A stretch of 28,147 nt of DNA from a virus: the IMG/VR virus record IMGVR_UViG_3300026512_000697, positions 1 through 28,147 of that record; one strand, given 5' to 3'. Positions 817 through 27,822 of this stretch are shown piece by piece; positions within the stretch are counted from its first letter, which is position 1; every line of letters begins with the position of its first letter. Below the pieces are notes generated by a model. That model was given only the letters and a program-made list of their open reading frames with translations. It was not told the DNA's origin and did not search any database. The translations under genes were made by a program, and so were the position numbers.

Positions 817-1227
817 TTAGTCCTTTTTCCTATCTATGGAAGCATAAGTGGAAATAGTATCGAGGAAATCGTCTAACTTCCCCTCCATCTTCTCTACTTT
901 TTGATTTGTATTTTTTGCGACTAATTCTAGGTTTTTTAAATGCAGTTCTAATTCTAGTTTAGATACAAACTTTGCTTCTGCTTTGCCCATATCTAAATGG
1001 GTTGATGTGTTTTGTTCAAGCACAACAATACGCTCAACATTTGCATCGATTTTCTTAAACTGTGCATTAAGTTTTTTATCTAAATCTTTTGAGTTTGTAC
1101 CACTTGTAGTTATATGTTTTTCCATATCTTCTTCAAGCCTTTCAACTCTATTTCTCAATACTGCGTATGTACCGATAACACCTGCAATGGCAATAACAAT
1201 ATTAACCATCCAACTTTCTAAATTCAT
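817..1227 (-). CDS. Membrane-anchored coiled-coil protein, spanin-like candidate
   Basis: 136 aa. One hydrophobic segment lies at residues 8-24 (MVNIVIAIAGVIGTYAVL). The rest is a long charged, heptad-like helix (RVERLEEDMEKH..., LDKKLNAQFKKIDANVERI..., LELELHLKNLELVAKNTNQKVEKMEGKLDDFL). This is the topology of an inner-membrane spanin (Rz-like) or of an accessory holin regulator. It lies in the lysis cassette, 2 nt upstream of the holin gene. No outer-membrane lipoprotein partner was recognised nearby, so spanin is only a hypothesis. The start is chosen on AAAGG six bases before the ATG. The start also overlaps the stop of a 10-codon ORF (ATGA). Confidence 0.55.
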   Translation of the reverse strand: MNLESWMVNIVIAIAGVIGTYAVLRNRVERLEEDMEKHITTSGTNSKDLDKKLNAQFKKIDANVERIVVLEQNTSTHLDMGKAEAKFVSKLELELHLKNLELVAKNTNQKVEKMEGKLDDFLDTISTYASIDRKKD

Positions 1228-1256
1228 ATTAAACCTTTCATTGCTTCATCTGCCAT
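1224..1256 (-). CDS. 10-codon coupled micro-ORF
   Basis: Reads MADEAMKGLI then TGA. It has a GAGAGG ribosome-binding site six bases before its ATG. Its stop overlaps the start of the TM/coiled-coil gene as ATGA. It may serve only to couple translation of gpD to the lysis genes; no function is claimed for the peptide. Confidence 0.3.
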   Translation of the reverse strand: MADEAMKGLI

Positions 1257-1259
1257 ATT

Positions 1260-2198
1260 TTACCTCTCGAATTCAATGGTCATCTCCCACCCACCACTAC
1301 TAAAGTTGTGATTGACTGATTTTATTTGATATTCTCCGTCATCTTCTAAAGTATCAGTTAGTTCTAAAATTCCACCAGCAAATACAATCTGTCCTATGGT
1401 AGATAAGCTTCCAGTAACTATTCTCTGGTTAGCTCTTTGTAAATATGCATCTGCTTTTAATTTTGCTTCGGCTTCATTTTTAAACGAACTTCTATATACA
1501 AGTTGTGGCATACCATCGCCAACAATAATATTTTTAGTTGTATTTGTTTTTGTATCGTGCCATGTAGCTTTACATGATTTGTAGAGTGTTTTATTTGAGT
1601 GCTTTGCAGATAGTGAACTACACTCATCAGCACTTATTGTATATTTTGGTAACTCATCACTTTTTTTATCATCTTTTACTTTTTTCATAAAGTATAGAGT
1701 GTTATTTTTTATGTTAAATATCGCATTCAAATCTCTAGCTATTCTATTTAAAAAATTTAGATCACTTTCATCATGCTGTGCAATACTAGTCATAAAAACA
1801 TCATCGAAATCGCTTTTTAACTCAAGACCGCTTCTATCTGCTATCTGAGAACATATATCTTTTATAGACAATTTTTCGTAAGTAATATCTCTTTTTTGTT
1901 TTAAAACATTGCTAAAATCAACACTTGTAGCATTTATCGTAATTCCCTGATGCTTATCCCATGTGCTACTTTGCACTTTAAAAATTCCACAAAAAGTTAA
2001 ATCATCACCATATCCTAAATATAGCTCCAACTCATCTTCATACTTTGGTCTGATAAATCCATCTGTTATTTTTATAGTGAGTTCATCGGCTTTTTCATTT
2101 GCTTCATCTTTAAAACTTATACTTGTATTGTTTTGTTTTAAAACTGTAGTTACATCATCGCCATTGGCAATGATTTTAAAATTGGGATACATCACCAT
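1260..2198 (-). CDS. D: Baseplate hub protein, P2 gpD / late control D family
   Basis: 312 aa. It forms the trimeric hub that links the tail tube to the spike (T4 gp27 analogue). The N-terminal half carries the typical DELTIKITDGFIRPKYEDELELYLGYG-type pattern (written here only as a family signature). The middle contains SFKDEANEKADEL and SDLNFLNRIARDLNAIF, the conserved pattern around the hub domain junction. The C-terminus has GEYQIKSVNHNFSSGGWEM, typical of D proteins. The order X then D after U and T is that of P2. It overlaps the upstream gpX gene by 7 nt, suggesting coupling. Confidence 0.88.
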   Translation of the reverse strand: MVMYPNFKIIANGDDVTTVLKQNNTSISFKDEANEKADELTIKITDGFIRPKYEDELELYLGYGDDLTFCGIFKVQSSTWDKHQGITINATSVDFSNVLKQKRDITYEKLSIKDICSQIADRSGLELKSDFDDVFMTSIAQHDESDLNFLNRIARDLNAIFNIKNNTLYFMKKVKDDKKSDELPKYTISADECSSLSAKHSNKTLYKSCKATWHDTKTNTTKNIIVGDGMPQLVYRSSFKNEAEAKLKADAYLQRANQRIVTGSLSTIGQIVFAGGILELTDTLEDDGEYQIKSVNHNFSSGGWEMTIEFER

Positions 2199-17048: not shown

Positions 17049-19949
17049 TTAAATTACCCCTTTGCTTATTACTCTTCGTTTTCGTTTTAGCCTCGATGTT
17101 TGGTTGTAAAATATAGGTTCTTTTAATTTTGATATATTTAGTCCAGTAATCTCTAAAGTTGCTCTTGTATAAACCATAAGGTCAAAGGCTTCATTTCGCA
17201 CAGTTGGCTTTCTTTTTTTCCATCTTCCAGTATTGTCTCTTTTTTCAGATATTAACTGCTCAAAGAAATTATCATCAAATTTTTTATTTTTAGGGAAGTG
17301 GGTATATGTAGGACCAGGAACTGTAATGCTAAGATTACTCCAAACAACATCTTTTAGTTGATTTACTCCTATCATAAAAAAAGTTGTTTTATATTTTGAT
17401 CTCTTTGCATCTCTTTTTGTAACTGCTGGAGCTTCAACTGGCTTTGCACCTTTTAGTGCATATATCCTCTTACCATATCTCGGTTTACAATATTGATATA
17501 CATATTTAGTTTTACTACCACCACTATCGATACCAGTAGCATATATTTTCATCTTTCCATTGTCATGTTCATAAGTTTGGTTGAGTAAAAATCTGTCTAA
17601 ATCTTCCCAAACATCAGGAAGTGCTGGGTCGCCAAATAATATCTCCCTATCTACTACCCAGCTCTCATCATCAAGCCCAAATCCCTCTACAAGTATCTCT
17701 AGTCTGTCCTCTTGTGTATCAACACTCGCTATTAGCACATATACTCCAAATGGCACTTCTATTTCATAATCTTCTTGCTTCTCTTTTAGAAAATCAATAT
17801 CAAGTTTTGAGTAATCTTCCTCCCAAACTTCAGCTAAACGAGTATTTTTCCACCTTTTCATTAGCCTTGTATCGCCAATCTTCATCTTTGATTGTGCTTT
17901 TAACCACTCTAAAATAATATCTTTCCAACTTCTCCAACCAAGAGGGCTGTATAAAGATGATAATTTATAGCCACGATTTACATGACCTGGATTATTTGGA
18001 ATCCATTTTGCACCATTATCCCAGTCCATCATCCATGTTTTTTGATATTCCTCTATCTCACCACCACAATGAGGGCATATCATCACAACTTCATCACTTA
18101 GTAGTTTAAAACTCTCTTTGTCATATTCAAATTTAAAGTTTTCAAAATCAAGCTTAACCATATTGTCTATATTTTGCTTTGATTTGTCTTTTGGAGTGCA
18201 ATGAGGACAAGGCATAAAATACTCTCGCTGGTCGCTCTCTTCATATTCAGTCTCAATATGTGAATTATTAGCACGAGTTGGAGTTGAATTTTCATAAATC
18301 TTTCTATTAGCAAAGGCATCAGTTCTATTATCAATAAGCTCAATAGGACTTCCCTCGCCATCAACATCATCTACAAATCCGTCAATATCATCTTTTATAG
18401 CAAATGAATAACTATCAGACCTAAAGCTAGACCCACTACCACTACCAGCAAGTGATAAACTACCACCAGGGAATGCCCACTCTAAAATAGTGGAGCTTTC
18501 TTTACTAGCTCCTCCACCTTTTCGCCTCTCGCTAACTCTACTTTTTAAAACTGGTGTCTCTTCCACCATTTTCCACAGTTTCTTTTTTGCATGTTTTTCA
18601 GCTAAGGCATCAGTTGGCAACCACATACCACCAGCTCGTGGTTCAATATGTATGTAATATCCAATCATATTATTTCCAACCTCTGTATTATGAGTAGGTA
18701 TAAAACTTTTACTTGCTAAATATAGATGAGATTTGCTATCTACTTCTATGCATCTCACTGGGATACTTTCTATTTCCTTAACATCAACAATCCTTCTTCT
18801 GAAAGTTTCCGTTGGACGACCTATTTTAATATCTGTCAATCTGTCATATTTTATTTTTGCGATATTGTTTTGTTTGTATGCTTTGAAAGTTATTTGATAA
18901 ATTATTTCTGATTGATTTATCTCTCTTTGATTTATTGTATTTTTTGCTTTTTGTTTTTTTGTTCTAATAATTGGTTTCAACCCAAGTGTTAAGATTAATT
19001 CTTTTACATTTTTAGTTAATTTTTCTGAAGCTGAATAATATTCACAATATCCATCTTTAGTAATATGCCCATCACCATCTATTAAACCTTGCAATAATTC
19101 AAGCCGATATTTTTCACTACTTCTTAATATTTTTTGAGGTATATGTTTACTTTTCCCTATCAATTTGCTAATTTTTGGATAAATATCATAAAAAATTATC
19201 TCAGTAGCATTTCCTTTTGAGTGCTTATCTGTTATTTTTGCTTTTATATTTTTATCTTGTAAAATTTTTAAATATTTTTGAGCCACTTTTTTATCTATAG
19301 TAATTCTATTGCTGTAACTATTGCCATTTGCTAACCACATTCCAAGCAAATATGGATCTATATCTATATCATTTGTTTGTATTTTTAAAACTTTTGATAC
19401 ATCTATAGCATATCTATTTCTATTTTTATATTTAAAATCTTTGTTTATAGACTCTGTATTTGTGATTATTTTTTCAAATCTTTTAAAAGTAGAACCAACA
19501 TATCTATCAACTGCCCATTTATGCTCTGCATCAGCTATAATTTTACTTCTATCGCTAAATATTATCTCAAAACATTTATGATTATAATAAATAGGTGAAA
19601 CATAGGTAATATTTACGATATTTCCATTTTCATCAAATACTTTATCTCCTACTTTTATCTCTTTCATAGTTGTCCAACCATCTACTGTTGGTATATCAGT
19701 ATCTATACTCAAAGCAAAACCAAGCTGAGTTCCCTTGATAACAATAACTTTAGAAGTAGGACTTTGTGGGCTTAACTCCTCCATAATCTCTTTTAAATAT
19801 GGAGTTCTTTTTGTCCTCCAGTTCCCAGGCTCTGCACTTCCTTTTGGTAAAACTCTATATTTATCAGCCCATTGCCATATATTTACATTTGGAGTTGGCT
19901 CAAATCCAGCTAAAAAACCTTTTACAAAAGCACTCATTTGATTACTCAT
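17049..19949 (-). CDS. Terminase large subunit (GpA family) carrying an intein
   Basis: 966 aa precursor; about 623 aa after removal of a 343-aa intein (residues 79-421). The exteins join to give VIKGTQLGF-TEVGNN at the ATPase P-loop region, so the intein sits in the ATP-binding site. Other parts: Walker B-like AIKDDID (517-523), two CPHC pairs (C581/C584, C625/C628) likely forming a zinc ribbon, and nuclease acid patches ASVDTQEDRLE (741-751), GIDSGG (806-811) and NEAFDLMVY near the end. It cuts and packages DNA with the Nu1-like subunit encoded upstream (8-nt overlap). GpA-type family as in lambda. Confidence 0.93.
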   Translation of the reverse strand: MSNQMSAFVKGFLAGFEPTPNVNIWQWADKYRVLPKGSAEPGNWRTKRTPYLKEIMEELSPQSPTSKVIVIKGTQLGFALSIDTDIPTVDGWTTMKEIKVGDKVFDENGNIVNITYVSPIYYNHKCFEIIFSDRSKIIADAEHKWAVDRYVGSTFKRFEKIITNTESINKDFKYKNRNRYAIDVSKVLKIQTNDIDIDPYLLGMWLANGNSYSNRITIDKKVAQKYLKILQDKNIKAKITDKHSKGNATEIIFYDIYPKISKLIGKSKHIPQKILRSSEKYRLELLQGLIDGDGHITKDGYCEYYSASEKLTKNVKELILTLGLKPIIRTKKQKAKNTINQREINQSEIIYQITFKAYKQNNIAKIKYDRLTDIKIGRPTETFRRRIVDVKEIESIPVRCIEVDSKSHLYLASKSFIPTHNTEVGNNMIGYYIHIEPRAGGMWLPTDALAEKHAKKKLWKMVEETPVLKSRVSERRKGGGASKESSTILEWAFPGGSLSLAGSGSGSSFRSDSYSFAIKDDIDGFVDDVDGEGSPIELIDNRTDAFANRKIYENSTPTRANNSHIETEYEESDQREYFMPCPHCTPKDKSKQNIDNMVKLDFENFKFEYDKESFKLLSDEVVMICPHCGGEIEEYQKTWMMDWDNGAKWIPNNPGHVNRGYKLSSLYSPLGWRSWKDIILEWLKAQSKMKIGDTRLMKRWKNTRLAEVWEEDYSKLDIDFLKEKQEDYEIEVPFGVYVLIASVDTQEDRLEILVEGFGLDDESWVVDREILFGDPALPDVWEDLDRFLLNQTYEHDNGKMKIYATGIDSGGSKTKYVYQYCKPRYGKRIYALKGAKPVEAPAVTKRDAKRSKYKTTFFMIGVNQLKDVVWSNLSITVPGPTYTHFPKNKKFDDNFFEQLISEKRDNTGRWKKRKPTVRNEAFDLMVYTRATLEITGLNISKLKEPIFYNQTSRLKRKRRVISKGVI
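18687..19715 (-). other. Intein with class 3 features and LAGLIDADG endonuclease domain
   Basis: 343 aa, inserted between F78 and T422 of the terminase. It begins with Ala (ALSIDTDIPTVDGWTTM), not Cys or Ser, and ends SFIPTHN before Thr. W145 follows the block B histidine (AEHKW), C400 lies in block F (PVRCIEVD), and +1 is Thr: together the W-C-T set that defines class 3 inteins, where the internal Cys starts splicing. The endonuclease has LLGMWLANG (201-209) and LLQGLIDGDG (285-294). In the first motif the catalytic acid is Asn (N208), so cutting may be lost. Confidence 0.88.
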
Positions 19950-21365: not shown

Positions 21366-21457
21366 TTTGCACCCCCTACATTGATATTTATATTTGTAGT
21401 TGATGTGCTATCATCAAAATCCCAATCTTGACTAGTCTCATATAACTTACTTATCAC
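21362..21457 (-). CDS. 31-aa coupled small gene
   Basis: GTG start; reads MISKLYETSQDWDFDDSTST then TNININVGGAK. Its start overlaps the stop of the ParB-like gene (ATGTGATAA) and its stop overlaps the next ATG (AATGA). GGGG lies eight bases before the GTG. The composition (acidic, W, ordered end NININVGG) looks like real protein, perhaps a C-terminal fragment of a larger gene. A frameshifted tail of the ParB gene was considered: a TGA just upstream in this frame argues against it. Confidence 0.5.
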   Translation of the reverse strand: MISKLYETSQDWDFDDSTSTTNININVGGAK

Positions 21458-22041
21458 ATCAAAATCCCCAGCCTTTTTAATATCTCAGCTTTTATCTTCT
21501 CATCATCACTTCCTACTTTTTTATTTATCTTTTCGATCCATTTATTATATTTGCTTTGGCTTATCTCTATTTTGTGCTTACCTACTACTACCAAAACCCC
21601 ATCACTACTACTTACTTCTTTTGTCTCCTCTTCTACTGGATCATCTTCTAAAAAATCTAAATCAAATCCCATAAGTTCAATATCAAAATTAAACTCATCT
21701 TGTAGCAGTTCCAACTCTTGCTTTAGCAACTCTTCATCAAACTCACTCAAATCTTGAAGTCTATTATCTGCTATCCTATAAGCCTTGATTTGTGCTTGGC
21801 TTAGATTTTCAGCTCGTATGCAAGGAACTGACAACATTTTTAAAAGCTTTGCACCCTCTATACGACCATGTCCTGTAACTACTACATTATTTTCATCAAC
21901 AATAATAGGATTTAGAAATCCAAACTCTCTTATACTATTTGCTATTTTGCTTATTTGGTCTGTGCTATGTATTCTTTGGTTTTTTTCATAAGGTATTAAC
22001 TCATCAACTTCTATATATTCTAACTCTAAATTATTCTCCAT
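21454..22041 (-). CDS. ParB-like nuclease domain protein
   Basis: 195 aa. Residues 7-95 match the ParB/sulfiredoxin fold: IEVDELIPYEKNQRIHS, ISKIANSIREFGFLNPIIVD, then VVTGHGRIEGAKLL (box II GHGR). Residues 80-100 carry LSQAQIKAYRIADNRLQDLS, seen in phage ParB proteins linked to DNA methylases. The C-terminal half is acidic, then Lys-rich (KAEILKRLGI, a usual family end). Phage relatives often sit beside or are fused to methyltransferases and terminases. Here it lies between the modification genes and the packaging genes. DNA binding or nicking is inferred. Confidence 0.8.
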   Translation of the reverse strand: MENNLELEYIEVDELIPYEKNQRIHSTDQISKIANSIREFGFLNPIIVDENNVVVTGHGRIEGAKLLKMLSVPCIRAENLSQAQIKAYRIADNRLQDLSEFDEELLKQELELLQDEFNFDIELMGFDLDFLEDDPVEEETKEVSSSDGVLVVVGKHKIEISQSKYNKWIEKINKKVGSDDEKIKAEILKRLGILM

Positions 22042-22927: not shown

Positions 22928-23385
22928 TATCTAGCCTCCATGTATTCATCAATAATCTCTTTAACCTCACTAAACCCAACTGCAAAAACACAACTAAACC
23001 CTGCATCTCTAAGCACTTGGTGGATATTGTTCTGTATCTCTAAATGTTCATCTTTTTTTAACTTCCCATCTTTCTTAAATGGACTTTTGCCCTCAGCTTT
23101 AAGTTCAATATAAAGTCCGTGATAATATTTATTAGGGAAGGCAATAAACAAGTCAGGATAGCCACGACTCCACTTCCCATGAAGTTTTTTAGCTCGACTT
23201 GCTTGAAACATTGTCGTTTTTCTCCCTGCCCCAATATCAAAATGAAAGAGAACAGCGTTATAAGCTCTTTGAAGATACTCGGCTACCATTTCCTCTAAAA
23301 TATCTTCTTCGTGCTTTTTAGGGCTATTTCTGTTAGTTCTATACGGTATTTTTCTACTTTTGTAGTTTCCTAGTGGGTTATTCAA
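22927..23385 (-). CDS. VRR-NUC domain nuclease
   Basis: 152 aa. VRR-NUC is a PD-(D/E)xK nuclease fold, seen in phages as Holliday-junction resolvase-like or structure-specific enzymes. Residues: DIGAGRKTTMFQASRAKKLHG, D78 in RGYPDLFIAFP, E94-x-K96 in LYIELKAEGKSP, and the helix EIQNNIHQVLRDAGFSCVFA with V..S..E at the end. All catalytic positions are present. Its ATG overlaps the stop of the methyltransferase upstream (4 nt), so the two are made together. A modification/restriction partnership is possible but not needed. Confidence 0.85.
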   Translation of the reverse strand: MNNPLGNYKSRKIPYRTNRNSPKKHEEDILEEMVAEYLQRAYNAVLFHFDIGAGRKTTMFQASRAKKLHGKWSRGYPDLFIAFPNKYYHGLYIELKAEGKSPFKKDGKLKKDEHLEIQNNIHQVLRDAGFSCVFAVGFSEVKEIIDEYMEAR

Positions 23386-24053
23386 AACAAACTCCCTTGC
23401 ACTGCTTCTAAGCGTTTATTAGCTATTTCTACATAATCAGCTTCTAACTCACAACCACACCACTCTAAGCCTAATGATTTACACGCTATGGCTGTTGTGC
23501 CACTTCCCATAAAAGGGTCGAATACTTTACAATCTGGAATTAATGATTTTTTTAAAAGAAATTCGATTAAATCGACTGGCTTTTGTGTAGGGTGCAAATC
23601 GTTTTGTGTTCTAGTAGCTTTGATTATATTTGCACTTCTACCGTCATTAAGTTTTGTGCTACCATTGCTACAAAATAAAATCATTTCGTATTTAGGAGCA
23701 TAATCTCCTTCTAAGTCGCCCATTCCTATGTTGTTTTTTTCCCATATTAAAATATTTTTAACCTTTCGATATTTCTGCAACTCGCTTTTAAACACTTCTA
23801 CAAGATGATGACTGCAAAACAAATACATATGTGCGTTTTCTTTGGATACCCTATGCAACTCTTTAACAAAGTCAGGAAGCCAATCTAAATTCTCATCATT
23901 TTGTATTTTTTTATGCTTTTTTTCTCTACGCCCACTTTGAAAACTCATACCAAATGGCGAATCGGTCAAAACCAAATCAAAGTAATCATCAGGTACTTGC
24001 TTCATAAACTCTAAACAGTCTATGTTGTGTATTTTGTTCATTTTATTTTTCAT
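23382..24053 (-). CDS. DNA methyltransferase (N6-adenine/N4-cytosine, beta class)
   Basis: 223 aa. The order is catalytic motif IV (LVLTDSPFGMSF, D31-S-P-F34) first, then the SAM-binding motif I (VFDPFMGSGTTAIACKSLG, about 177-195) near the C-terminus, after LHPTQKPVDLIEF. That is the beta-class order. Motif IV is DSPF rather than the usual DPPY/DPPF or SPPY. It methylates DNA, probably protecting the phage or altering regulation. A second ATG (codon 5, MNKIHNIDC) could also be the start. It ends overlapping the VRR-NUC gene. Confidence 0.88.
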   Translation of the reverse strand: MKNKMNKIHNIDCLEFMKQVPDDYFDLVLTDSPFGMSFQSGRREKKHKKIQNDENLDWLPDFVKELHRVSKENAHMYLFCSHHLVEVFKSELQKYRKVKNILIWEKNNIGMGDLEGDYAPKYEMILFCSNGSTKLNDGRSANIIKATRTQNDLHPTQKPVDLIEFLLKKSLIPDCKVFDPFMGSGTTAIACKSLGLEWCGCELEADYVEIANKRLEAVQGSLF

Positions 24054-24435: not shown

Positions 24436-25245
24436 CTATGCCACCTCGCATAACATTTTTTCTTTAGCATTTCTATACATTTCTCGAGAGATTTCAAAGC
24501 CATAACAGTGTCTATTTAATTCTGCACACGCTCTTAGTGTTGATGCACTTCCAGCACATGGGTCAATTACAACATCACCCTCATCTGTAAAAATTCTAAT
24601 AAGCTCTGCAAGTACGGCAATAGGTTTTTGTGTTGGGTGTAACTTAGGATAGGCTTTACCATCTTTTTTCCAGTGAAACCAGTTAAAAACCATTTTTCCG
24701 TTATTGTTAAACTTTGGAAGTTTCTCTCTGTAAAGCACAACAGCATACTCAGTTGCCCCTACTACTTTCATATTTGCTTTTAGCACTTGAGGCGAATAAT
24801 CTTTTATAAAAGTAATCGGATAGTTATTTTTAAAGCCGTATTTTTCGCCATATTTTATGACTGTTTGCATTTGTTCAAACGCACAAAAGACAATCATTGC
24901 TGGAGCTTTCCCTACCTCTTTCGGCTCTTTTTTGAGTAACTTAGAACAGAAGTGCATATACTCTGCAATGTTAAAACTGTAGTCGCTATTAAAAAACGCC
25001 TTACCTGCTTTTTCACTCTCTCCGTTCTTGTTGTCTCCGTCTTTGTACCACTCTGTACTTGACGCGTAAGCATTTATCCCTAGGTTGTATGGAATATCAG
25101 CGATAACGAGCTGTGCTTTAGGTATGTTGTAGCGTTTAAAGTTTTGAAAATTGTCGTTATATAATTCAATCTTTGTGCTTTCATCCACAAATAAATTCAC
25201 GCTTGAAATACTATTTTTCTTTTTTGTTTCAAATAAATTGCTCAT
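24436..25245 (-). CDS. DNA methyltransferase (phage DIPYN type)
   Basis: 269 aa. Motif IV is LVIADIPYNLG (D50-I-P-Y53) followed by INAYASSTEWYKDGDN, a pattern typical of a phage-encoded group. HWKKDGKAYPKLHPTQKPIA and motif I VVIDPCAGSASTLRACAELN (D228 onward) follow: beta-class order. It probably modifies adenine or cytosine N4. It differs clearly from the 223-aa enzyme, so the phage carries two specificities. It lies downstream of the replication genes. Confidence 0.88.
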   Translation of the reverse strand: MSNLFETKKKNSISSVNLFVDESTKIELYNDNFQNFKRYNIPKAQLVIADIPYNLGINAYASSTEWYKDGDNKNGESEKAGKAFFNSDYSFNIAEYMHFCSKLLKKEPKEVGKAPAMIVFCAFEQMQTVIKYGEKYGFKNNYPITFIKDYSPQVLKANMKVVGATEYAVVLYREKLPKFNNNGKMVFNWFHWKKDGKAYPKLHPTQKPIAVLAELIRIFTDEGDVVIDPCAGSASTLRACAELNRHCYGFEISREMYRNAKEKMLCEVA

Positions 25246-25247
25246 CC

Positions 25248-25418
25248 CTAAAACCCCTCTGCTATTTTCTTGCCGTCAAGTATCAAATTATTGACGATTG
25301 TTAATTTCTTCCCTGCAAACGCACTCTTTCTTTTTTCAATTCCCATCTCCTCAACAAGATAATCAACCACTGTGCTACTGTTAGTCGCTGCTGTTATTGC
25401 TTTTTGTAGGTTTGTCAT
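25248..25418 (-). CDS. Unknown 56-aa protein
   Basis: MTNLQKAITAATNSSTVVDY then LVEEMGIEKRKSAFAGKKLT and IVNNLILDGKKIAEGF. GAGGTGG before the start and a TAATG overlap with the initiator gene support translation. It is small and basic. No family recognised. Confidence 0.55.
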   Translation of the reverse strand: MTNLQKAITAATNSSTVVDYLVEEMGIEKRKSAFAGKKLTIVNNLILDGKKIAEGF

Positions 25419-26269
25419 TATGCCACCTCCATATCAGTTAGAAAAACAAGCTCTTTCTTTGCTATTTTTTCTAAATATCTTGCATAGTTTAGTTTATACT
25501 TAGCACCTGTAACCGCTTCAAATACTTCATCTTTAAATGTTCCATCAACAAAGCTTCCTTGAATTTTTACGCTTATATTTTTTGGTAAGTACGATAAATA
25601 TAATTCCTCTTTGATGAACTTTGCTAGTCCTACTGTTTTTTTGTCTTCTGGATTAAAATATCTCTTGTAGGCATAGGCAATTACTTCAATATCAAACATC
25701 TCTTTAACTTTTAAATATTCCTGATAAGCTGTTTCTTTTTTCCCTAAATATTTCTTACTCGTAGATAGTCTTAACTCTGAAAAATATCTAAAAAAATTAA
25801 TATCTAAATGACAAGATAATTGCTCTTGTTCTGGCTCTTGGTTTTGAGTGCTTTTATTGTTGTTGTATTGTTTATTATTTATACTTAGTTCTGCTATCGT
25901 TCTGCTATCGTTCTGCACCTCTTCACCAAACTCCGTATTTTCGGTAGTTGTGGGGGATAAAATCGTTCTGCTATCGTTCTGCAATCGTTCTGCTGTTTTT
26001 GCTGAATTTTGATGTATGTTATTGAAATTTTGAGTGTTTTTTTCCATCCAATATTGATGATGTTTTTCAATCGCATCTTTAAAATCTTTAGTCCATTTAT
26101 GAGCATTAGATTTTGATAAATTCCAACTTTTAGCATAAAAAGAAATTGAATTTGAAACACCATTATCTAAATCTAAACAGTACTCCATAAATGCTCTTGC
26201 TTTTTCTCTTTTGTCCTCATTCTGCAATTGTATTGCATACTCTTTAGGCATAGTCATATAAGCACTCAT
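25418..26269 (-). CDS. Replication initiator candidate (lambda O-like organisation)
   Basis: 283 aa. Residues 40-75 (ISFYAKSWNLSKSNAHKWTK, DFKDAIEKHHQYW) look like a winged-helix DNA-binding domain of phage replication proteins. A polar linker (about 80-150, Asn/Gln/Glu-rich) follows, then a helical C-terminal part (FFRYFSELRLSTSKKYLGKK, YKRYFNPEDKKTVGLAKFIK). The gene follows a DnaB-type helicase, with which such proteins load at the origin. The linker is encoded by phased iterons, giving a duplicated QNDSRTI (97-103 and 119-125). Specific function is inferred from context. Confidence 0.65.
   Translation of the reverse strand: MSAYMTMPKEYAIQLQNEDKREKARAFMEYCLDLDNGVSNSISFYAKSWNLSKSNAHKWTKDFKDAIEKHHQYWMEKNTQNFNNIHQNSAKTAERLQNDSRTILSPTTTENTEFGEEVQNDSRTIAELSINNKQYNNNKSTQNQEPEQEQLSCHLDINFFRYFSELRLSTSKKYLGKKETAYQEYLKVKEMFDIEVIAYAYKRYFNPEDKKTVGLAKFIKEELYLSYLPKNISVKIQGSFVDGTFKDEVFEAVTGAKYKLNYARYLEKIAKKELVFLTDMEVA
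25851..25993. repeat. Six phased iterons plus AT-rich tract: putative replication origin
   Basis: The heptamer GTTCTGC (plus strand) begins at 25888, 25899, 25910, 25965, 25976 and 25987. All spacings are multiples of 11 bp (11, 11, 55, 11, 11), one helical turn, and the usual linker is TATC. An 11-bp period does not fit codons, so it is kept at DNA level. The stretch 25851-25887 next to it is almost only A/T. Same design as lambda ori inside gene O. Confidence 0.72.
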
Positions 26270-27471
26270 CAGATAACCTCCATAGATACAGTAGGCGTAT
26301 CGTTTAATGATGATGTGTAAGATGTTTCATATAAGGCTGGTTTGTGTTGTTGTAGCTTTAATATCTTAGGATTAAAATATACTTCTTGTTTAAATTCATT
26401 TCCGTTTTGTCTGTTTTTCTCACAAATAAAATATCTTTTATGCTCATCATCTTTATCTTTTTGTAAAAAGAACATAATGTCAGCATCATAATCTGCATCG
26501 CCTGACCCTTTTACTGCCATACGGTTACTTTTTAAGTCCTCGTTGCTTATTTGCACGATTAAGATGATGATAATATCAAGCTCCACACACAACTTAGATA
26601 GTTTACTTGTTATATCTGCTATCTGCTCGTGTCGTTTTCCTGTATGATGCTTGTTTGTGAGTTTCATAAGGCTATCAATAGTAAAAAACTTTACTCCTGA
26701 TTTTGCTAGATATTTTGTATTTCTTTGAATATCTGAAATATCCCTGCCCTTGTCAAGTATCAAGATATTATCTTGTTGCAGTTGTGTTAAATTTGCCTTT
26801 TTACTTCTTTGAGCAATTTTCCATATTGGCATCTCAAAACTAAAAAAAGCACTTTTAAACCCTTGTGATACATTAAACAAAAACTGCAAACTAAAAGCCG
26901 TTTTTCCTGCTCCCTTTGCACCACCTAACATTATCAACTGGCTTAGTTCCAGCCCACCATTGAAATAGTTATCTACAAGTGCAATACCTGTTTCATATTT
27001 TGGCTTATTTGGCATATTGTCGTAGTCTGTTATTGCTTGAGATAACTTTTGCGGTTCGTAATTTGTTGGTGCTTCTAATTCTTCTTGTGATTTGTTAATT
27101 ATCTCTAGTTTTTGAGATAGTGATAACTCATTATTTTTTAAATCAAGTGATAATTTTAAGAGCTTTCTTTGTCTTGACAACTCTAAAATCTGCTTTTCAT
27201 ATTCTGTAATATTAAAAATAGGACTTTTAATCATTATTTCACACATTACCTGCTCATCAAAGCTCTTATCTTTAACTAATACAGCTTTAATAAACTCTTC
27301 ATCTATCGGCTTGTCATTTTCATAAAGAACTTTCATTGCTCTAAAAATGTTTTGATGAGTTACTAGATAAAAGTCTTCTACATTTAGCTGTGTATCTTCT
27401 ATTTTTATTGGGTCATATAAAATACTACTAAGTACGCTTTGCTCTAAACTAACATTGTAATACTCATTCAT
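26269..27471 (-). CDS. Replicative DNA helicase, DnaB type
   Basis: 400 aa. The N-terminal domain (1-100: LEQSVLSSILYDP, EDFYLVTHQNIFRAMKVLYE) is the DnaB N-terminal fold. The RecA-like domain has Walker A GGAKGAGKTAFSLQ (183-196), FFSFEMPIWKIAQR (arginine/walker-adjacent SLEM-type motif), VKFFTIDSLMKL (Walker B region) and KGSGDADYDADIMFFLQKD. It unwinds phage DNA, loaded by the initiator encoded next (stop and start share a base). It is somewhat shorter than cellular DnaB (about 470 aa). Confidence 0.92.
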   Translation of the reverse strand: MNEYYNVSLEQSVLSSILYDPIKIEDTQLNVEDFYLVTHQNIFRAMKVLYENDKPIDEEFIKAVLVKDKSFDEQVMCEIMIKSPIFNITEYEKQILELSRQRKLLKLSLDLKNNELSLSQKLEIINKSQEELEAPTNYEPQKLSQAITDYDNMPNKPKYETGIALVDNYFNGGLELSQLIMLGGAKGAGKTAFSLQFLFNVSQGFKSAFFSFEMPIWKIAQRSKKANLTQLQQDNILILDKGRDISDIQRNTKYLAKSGVKFFTIDSLMKLTNKHHTGKRHEQIADITSKLSKLCVELDIIIILIVQISNEDLKSNRMAVKGSGDADYDADIMFFLQKDKDDEHKRYFICEKNRQNGNEFKQEVYFNPKILKLQQHKPALYETSYTSSLNDTPTVSMEVI

Positions 27472-27479
27472 CGTAAAGC

Positions 27480-27695
27480 CTATGATATGTTTTCTCTATC
27501 AAGTATCTCTTTTATAAATTCAAGTGTTGCATCGTTTCTTAGATAATCAGCAATAAGTTTTTCTTTTTTCCCAAGCTGTGTTCTATATCTATTTGCGATT
27601 TTTATAAGGTCGGTTGCATTGAACCATCCTGTTTTGTGATTTTGTCTAATAATCCCATCTTTAAATGGTCTCATCATAATTTGTGCAGTTTTCAT
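27480..27695 (-). CDS. Minimal KilA-N domain protein
   Basis: 71 aa from the ATG at 27695, chosen because AGGGG lies seven bases upstream; a longer GTG-started frame to 27794 runs through operator and hairpin DNA and is not likely. IIRQNHKTGWFNATDLIKIA, then LIADYLRND and LEFIKEI give the KilA-N DNA-binding core. Family members usually add a C-terminal domain, absent here. It is the first gene after the control region and may act as a regulator or antirepressor. Confidence 0.7.
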   Translation of the reverse strand: MKTAQIMMRPFKDGIIRQNHKTGWFNATDLIKIANRYRTQLGKKEKLIADYLRNDATLEFIKEILDRENIS

Positions 27696-27717
27696 CTGAA
27701 AGCCCCTATTTTGTGTA

Positions 27718-27737
27718 AATATGGGATTTCCCATATT
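27718..27737. promoter_or_regulatory. Palindromic operator
   Basis: Perfect 9-bp arms AATATGGGA and TCCCATATT around TT. It overlaps the last bases of the leftward -10 box, a place where a bound repressor would block transcription of the replication genes. Confidence 0.6.
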
Positions 27738-27740
27738 ATA
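27735..27740 (-). promoter_or_regulatory. Leftward early promoter, -10 TATAAT
   Basis: Consensus TATAAT on the leftward strand, preceded by a T-run, about 40 nt before the KilA-N ATG. The -35 position (ACACTC) is poor. Campylobacterota sigma-70 promoters often lack a -35 box. Confidence 0.5.
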
Positions 27741-27755
27741 AAAAGACCTTATTTC

Positions 27756-27822
27756 TGGAGTGTTATTTATAAAAGGAGGTAGGCGACACTCCACATGCCA
27801 AAACCGCCCACCTTTTATAAAT
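27756..27822. repeat. Two interleaved inverted repeats
   Basis: Pair 1: TGGAGTGT (27756-27763) with ACACTCCA (27786-27793). Pair 2: ATTTATAAAAGG (27765-27776) with CCTTTTATAAAT (27811-27822). Arms alternate 1-2-1-2, so in RNA the two stems compete or form a pseudoknot. Confidence 0.65.

Follow-up and report, generated by a model that had tools for sequence, protein, structure and literature searches.

Repeat array within a viral gene

What role do six short direct repeats play inside the coding region of a single viral gene? The window analyzed here, a stretch of 28,147 nucleotides representing IMG/VR virus record IMGVR_UViG_3300026512_000697 and belonging to a prophage of a Campylobacterota bacterium, contains six copies of GTTCTGC, starting at 25888, 25899, 25910, 25965, 25976, and 25987 with start-to-start spacings of 11, 11, 55, 11, and 11. 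We thereby recover exactly the starts, all separated by multiples of 11 bp, that had been listed in a preliminary description of the locus, which proposed a lambda-type replication origin inside a replication initiator gene. On the minus strand, which is the sense strand of the gene, the unit reads GCAGAACGATN, and three copies, a 44-bp spacer, and three further copies lie ∼275 to 385 nt into the coding region. Five of the copies are exact across 10 bases, and the final copy reads GCAGAACTAA.

25961 to 25993, minus strand: half-array 1, three 11-bp iterons GCAGAACGATN (25983-25993, 25972-25982, 25961-25971)
25917 to 25960, minus strand: 44-bp spacer separating half-array 1 from half-array 2; it contains CCGAAAATACGG, and in many relatives CCCAAAATATAGGG occupies the corresponding position
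25884 to 25916, minus strand: half-array 2, with iterons at 25906-25916, 25895-25905, and 25884-25894, the final one reading GCAGAACTAAG

The count of GTTCTGC is by itself unremarkable, since 2.6 copies are expected by chance across the whole window and six were reached in 5 of 100 shuffles. The gene holds 21 matching 7-mers at a lag of 11, a value matched by none of 10,000 synonymous-codon shuffles (maximum, 13), and only 3 of 10,000 such shuffles of the initiator gene contained any 7-mer six times. Repeats at the protein level fail to explain the pattern, as had been argued from the 11-bp period, because the six copies are spread over all three frames (phases 0, 2, 1, 2, 1, and 0). The accompanying claim that all six copies lie on one face of the helix is true within each triplet but too strong for the whole array. 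With a helical repeat of 10.5 bp, the copies of the first triplet sit at 0, 17, and 34 degrees and those of the second at 120, 137, and 154 degrees, so that one triplet is rotated against the other by ∼120 degrees, or about one-third of a turn. No second array of the kind represented by SPP1 oriR was seen, GTTCTGC being absent elsewhere in the window, and a search with the longer paired repeat pattern found no second site in the 1.53-Mb host assembly with up to two mismatches allowed, where the phage genome is possibly incomplete.

The surrounding gene and its neighborhood

The gene that carries the array encodes a putative initiator protein whose predicted domains divide the coding region as follows, with the helicase gene included for reference.

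26269 to 27471, minus strand: gene for a phage replicative helicase of the dnaB type, 400 aa, immediately upstream of the initiator gene (Pfam, phrog_19)
25418 to 26269, minus strand: initiator gene, 283 aa (protein P0001); its start codon shares one base with the dnaB stop codon (TGATG)
26030 to 26269, minus strand: N-terminal helix-turn-helix domain, residues 1 to 80, proposed iteron-binding domain (AlphaFold; conserved in all relatives)
26144 to 26146, minus strand: codon of I42, at the start of the first helix of the helix-turn-helix; relatives have Glu exactly when the iteron is CCGAGC
26108 to 26110, minus strand: codon of S54, at the start of the recognition helix; Ser occurs with xCGAAC iterons and Gly with xTGAAC iterons
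25820 to 26008, minus strand: linker, residues 88 to 150, predicted to be disordered (pLDDT of <50 throughout) and containing the entire repeat region
25421 to 25819, minus strand: C-terminal domain, residues 151 to 283, proposed helicase-recruiting part, with helices followed by a small beta part

The AlphaFold model of the N-terminal domain places helices at residues 21 to 35, at 42 to 48, and from 53 onward, with pLDDT mostly above 85, and the C-terminal domain modeled alone gives a confident fold (pLDDT 88, pTM 0.80). Fold searches with the whole protein and with the C-terminal domain returned no PDB match at an E value of <0.001, a fold search of a viral library likewise gave no match for the initiator, and sequence searches of the PDB with the single protein and with a profile found none. 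The window protein has no convincing family match in Pfam, PHROG, or NCBIfam, and 30 family members compared with Pfam hit no replication family at E values up to 0.05. Three of these 30 members match PHROG 270 ("replication initiation protein") weakly, with a best value of 4.7e-6 and over the linker/C-terminal part only, and two family members match a DnaD-like loader PHROG, also in the linker/C-terminal part.

The gene neighbors a DnaB helicase, as the preliminary description had stated. The product of this gene, which lies directly upstream, matches Pfam DnaB_C (1.7e-22), the DnaB N domain (5e-17), and phrog_19 (8.7e-52). Family matches among the tested neighbors revealed no recognizable helicase-loader gene; a dnaB homologue stands upstream instead. 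The window contains several other minus-strand genes. A small KilA-N domain gene (27480-27794; Pfam, 1.9e-7) lies just upstream of dnaB, while two N6/N4 DNA methylase genes (24436-25245 and 23382-24053) and a ParB-like gene (21454-22041) lie downstream of the initiator gene. The GpA-type large terminase gene (17049-19949) contains an in-frame insertion with LAGLIDADG/homing-endonuclease domains, an intein-like element in TerL. Rfam and tRNA scans across the window found nothing.

Repeats are kept at the DNA level among relatives

Direct searches recovered a 95%-identical viral contig (L005), a homologue in Sulfurimonas phage SNW-1 at 29% identity, and one distant genome, and a profile search with the N-terminal domain then yielded 51 distinct long genes, drawn both from genomes of Campylobacterota and from IMG/VR contigs. 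Named hosts of these relatives include Aliarcobacter, Nitratiruptor, Sulfurovaceae, and Sulfurimonas. In 44 of the 49 loci for which upstream sequence is available, the gene is preceded by a DnaB homologue, as a rule one that touches it.

The preliminary description had suggested asking whether homologous genes keep the linker repeats at the DNA level and with 11-bp phase. The first part stands, with linker repeats in nearly all of the 51 distinct relatives; the second does not, since spacings within half-arrays vary (11+11, 11+9, 9+14, 11+22, and 12+12 in L034) and exact 11-bp phase is therefore not a rule of the family. The usual layout is a half-array of 2 to 4 copies, a gap of ∼45 to 65 bp, a second half-array, and an AT-rich stretch, with half-arrays offset by roughly 66 to 89 bp, and in L025 and L026 the 11+22 spacing of the first half is mirrored as 22+11 in the second. 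Exact 11-bp phase is the form found in the lineage of the window, and a half-array spanning about two helical turns is the commoner rule. Of the relatives, L033, which ranks second in distance by score, has no clean repeat family, and L055 keeps three copies.

To quantify the repeats we adopted a lag spectrum in place of a per-gene score based on the most frequent 7-mer with one mismatch, which is weak because AT-rich words compete (15 of 51 genes exceed every shuffle). The shuffles behind the pooled lag counts exchanged synonymous codons only, preserving both protein and codon usage. Across 38 nonredundant genes pooled, we counted 186 6-mer matches at a lag of 11 against 14.5 expected (largest shuffle, 27) and 1,664 total lag matches against 498 expected. 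The C-terminal part of the same 38 genes shows no comparable excess, with 6 lag-11 matches against 2.7.

Some members of the family depart from the usual architecture. The most distant relative by score, L034 (ORF 1464-2229), has two arrays, each made of three TGAAACAC copies that recur every 12 bp and therefore stay in codon phase. L007 (ORF 1090-2169, minus strand) has CCGATA repeats at 11/22-bp spacing and a different C-terminal part, with dnaB absent within 1.4 kb upstream, an architecture that suggests domain exchange. ORFs of ∼76 to 112 aa that consist of the N-terminal domain only occur in L019/L103, L020/L076, L021/L077, L029/L078, L030, L031, L032/L079, and L102, and in L019 to L021 they adjoin the full initiator gene, where their products could compete for its iterons or exert regulation through them.

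Repeat spelling follows the helix-turn-helix

The repeats are spelled differently in different lineages (GCAGAAC, CCGAAC, CCGAGC, GTGAAC, CTGAAC, ATGAAC, TCGAAC, TGGAAC, TGCAAC, ACGGAC, TGAGAC, AAGAAC, CCGATA, and TGAAAC). Copies inside one gene are mostly identical in spelling, and a change of spelling has therefore reached the sites together. The iteron cores of different lineages were brought into register manually on G-A-A-C, and the mutual information between iteron bases and 246 aligned protein columns was then calculated. For iteron base 2, residue 54 is the top column of the 246 (z = 11.7), with Ser accompanying C in 20 cases, Gly accompanying T in 7, and Gly accompanying the shifted TGG/TGC in 4. 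For base 5, residue 42 is the best column outside the linker, and Glu42 is present in all 3 nonredundant CCGAGC cases and absent elsewhere. Linker columns likewise score high, because the iterons encode them. In the predicted helix-turn-helix, residues 54 and 42 each stand at the start of a helix.

Changes were counted on a tree built without these columns. Residue 54 changes 6 times against 7 changes of the iteron base, and there are 3 changes of residue 42 and 3 of GAGC. Independent pairs on the tree nearly always agree and none is opposite, with 3 pairs for residue 54 and 2 for residue 42 on well-supported branches, numbers so small that a formal sign test falls short of significance. Close pairs illustrate the pattern: L011 combines GTGAAC with Gly54 among CCGAAC/Ser54 kin, and L045 (CCGAGC, Glu42) stands beside L066 (CCGAAC, Val42). 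In five relatives found later (L075, L087, L089, L098, and L100), Gly54 without exception accompanies xTGAAC or TGGAAC, in keeping with the residue-54 rule; the support is mild, because these five are kin of known cases. Since spelling tracks residues 54 and 42, the initiator protein most likely binds the repeats in its own gene, judging by sequence covariation.

AT-rich tract, spacer, and GC skew

The preliminary description had also drawn attention to an AT-rich tract alongside the repeats, and one does lie directly after the last copy.

25851 to 25883, minus strand: AT-rich tract TATAAATAATAAACAATACAACAACAATAAAAG, candidate DNA unwinding element (family AT analysis)

Across the family, AT content in the 30 bp past the last iteron is 0.79, compared with 0.745 under synonymous shuffles (z = 7.1), so that at the family level the AT peak directly after the final iteron exceeds what the encoded amino acids dictate. 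The spacer between the half-arrays is possibly a third element of the origin. A central inverted repeat is often visible there (CCC-AAAATATA-GGG, CCGAAAATACGG), but we rejected it as a candidate, with a summed score of 324 against 304 ± 17 under synonymous shuffles. A GC-skew switch, which had been put forward as a check on the origin, is present at the iteron site neither in the window nor in SNW-1; in both, GC skew tracks the coding strand.

A probable replication origin within the initiator gene

We conclude that the six repeats are very probably iterons for the helix-turn-helix of the protein encoded around them and that, together with the AT-rich tract, they form a prophage replication origin inside the linker of the initiator gene. 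This reading is based on the conservation of the arrays at the DNA level, the spelling shared within each gene, covariation with the helix-turn-helix, the AT peak, and linkage to dnaB. We hypothesize that the helix-turn-helix domain would bind both half-arrays in its own gene, that the bound complex would strain and then open the AT-rich tract, and that the C-terminal domain would recruit the phage DnaB encoded just upstream. Melting, helicase loading, and the start of replication at the array are inferred by analogy with lambda O, SPP1 gene 38, and 80alpha ORF20.

The chief rival, which we consider improbable, is that the arrays are operators through which the protein binds its own gene only to block transcription, with replication starting elsewhere. 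Covariation indicates that protein and repeats match and does not speak to the effect of binding, and the stand-alone N-terminal-domain copies of ∼92 to 112 aa beside the gene (L019/L103, L020/L076, and L021/L077) are what a regulator might look like. Autoregulation fits poorly with arrays that lie ∼275 to 385 nt inside the coding region in an origin-like layout of two half-arrays with an AT peak after the second, and with dnaB linkage in 44 of 49 loci. Furthermore, the ACCGAAC core is absent from the rest of the SNW-1 genome, and thus no promoter operator is seen there.

We regard as very unlikely a packaging (pac) or partition site recognized by some other product of the phage, for instance the small terminase subunit or a ParB-like protein. 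The SNW-1 initiator gene is two genes away from the small terminase gene, and the window encodes a ParB-like protein, but the repeat spelling covaries with the helix-turn-helix of the protein whose gene surrounds it, and the arrays travel with dnaB. The window's array is in the initiator gene even though the end of the large terminase gene is ∼6 kb distant. Least credible of all is functionless tandem duplication by replication slippage, since, even though short-unit direct repeats might be expected in a disordered linker tolerant of sequence change, the copies occupy all three frames and stay alike while the spacers between them differ and their spacings vary (9+14, 11+22, and mirrored 22+11), the arrays recur in nearly all relatives against protein-preserving shuffles, and changes of spelling are linked to changes in the helix-turn-helix.

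Beyond the origin itself, we tentatively suggest, at somewhat less than even confidence, that this is an unrecognized initiator family of Campylobacterota phages in which gene, initiator, and origin form a self-contained cassette. Two residues at helix starts of the helix-turn-helix would set a private code for each lineage, the C-terminal domain would recruit DnaB without a separate loader, and the half-arrays would form paired complexes around a central element. Prophages of Campylobacterota, with relatives in Sulfurimonas, Sulfurovaceae, Nitratiruptor, and Aliarcobacter, gain a candidate origin, and a likely function can be named for an SNW-1 gene so far called hypothetical. With ∼50 natural initiator-origin pairs, more than 10 spellings, and two candidate specificity residues, the joint change of initiator and origin becomes directly testable, and such pairs could be a source of plasmid origins that function independently of one another in hosts for which genetic tools are scarce.

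Comparison with known origins

The proposal of a lambda-type origin holds for the DNA-level repeats in the linker, the AT-rich tract, and the dnaB neighbor, but not for membership in the lambda O family, from which the window family differs in Pfam relationship, loader, and array. Among 30 members compared with Pfam there is no detectable sequence relation to lambda O. Lambda has a single row of 4 iterons (6 in Stx phages), whereas the window family has two half-arrays of ∼11-bp units; lambda iterons are longer, about 18 to 19 bp. Lambda encodes the loader P beside O and uses the host DnaB, while the window has a phage dnaB just upstream and no recognized loader. Origins embedded in lambdoid O genes are established, and ori-lambda resembles the window in that direct iterons and an AT-rich tract are found midway along the initiator gene (PMC7466680).

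An embedded origin is also established for SPP1 gene 38, where G38P binds direct repeats in its own gene next to an AT-rich unwinding element, and the window shares with SPP1 the repeats in the initiator gene, the AT-rich element, and a phage-encoded DnaB-type helicase (PMC6316719). In SPP1 the loader is a protein of its own, gp39, and oriR provides a second origin, whereas neither a loader nor a second array was found in the window, and the 30 family members have no Pfam match to the G38P/replisome organizer family, with the weak PHROG 270 match in 3 of the 30. The replisome organizer ORF20 of Staphylococcus phage 80alpha has been proposed to hold an origin within its own gene (PMC5499656). 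That phage has no helicase gene and encodes a DnaC-like ORF21 (PMC5499656), and its host belongs to an unrelated phylum.

A further comparison is with Sulfurimonas phage SNW-1, whose protein WAK43912.1, annotated as a "hypothetical protein," is a direct relative (29% identity) encoded at the same place behind dnaB. Its gene has GAAC cores spaced 11, 9, and 11 and half-arrays 66 bp apart, with the iteron (A)CCGAAC where the window has GCAGAAC. The words "origin," "iteron," and "helicase" are absent from the main text of the SNW-1 paper (PMC11290706), and in the open literature, short of a full literature search, we found no origin described in phages of Campylobacterota. Origins inside initiator genes are of an already known kind; the novelty lies in the protein family and its phylum, in an array divided into two halves of ∼11-bp units, and in the lineage-specific spellings with their candidate specificity residues.
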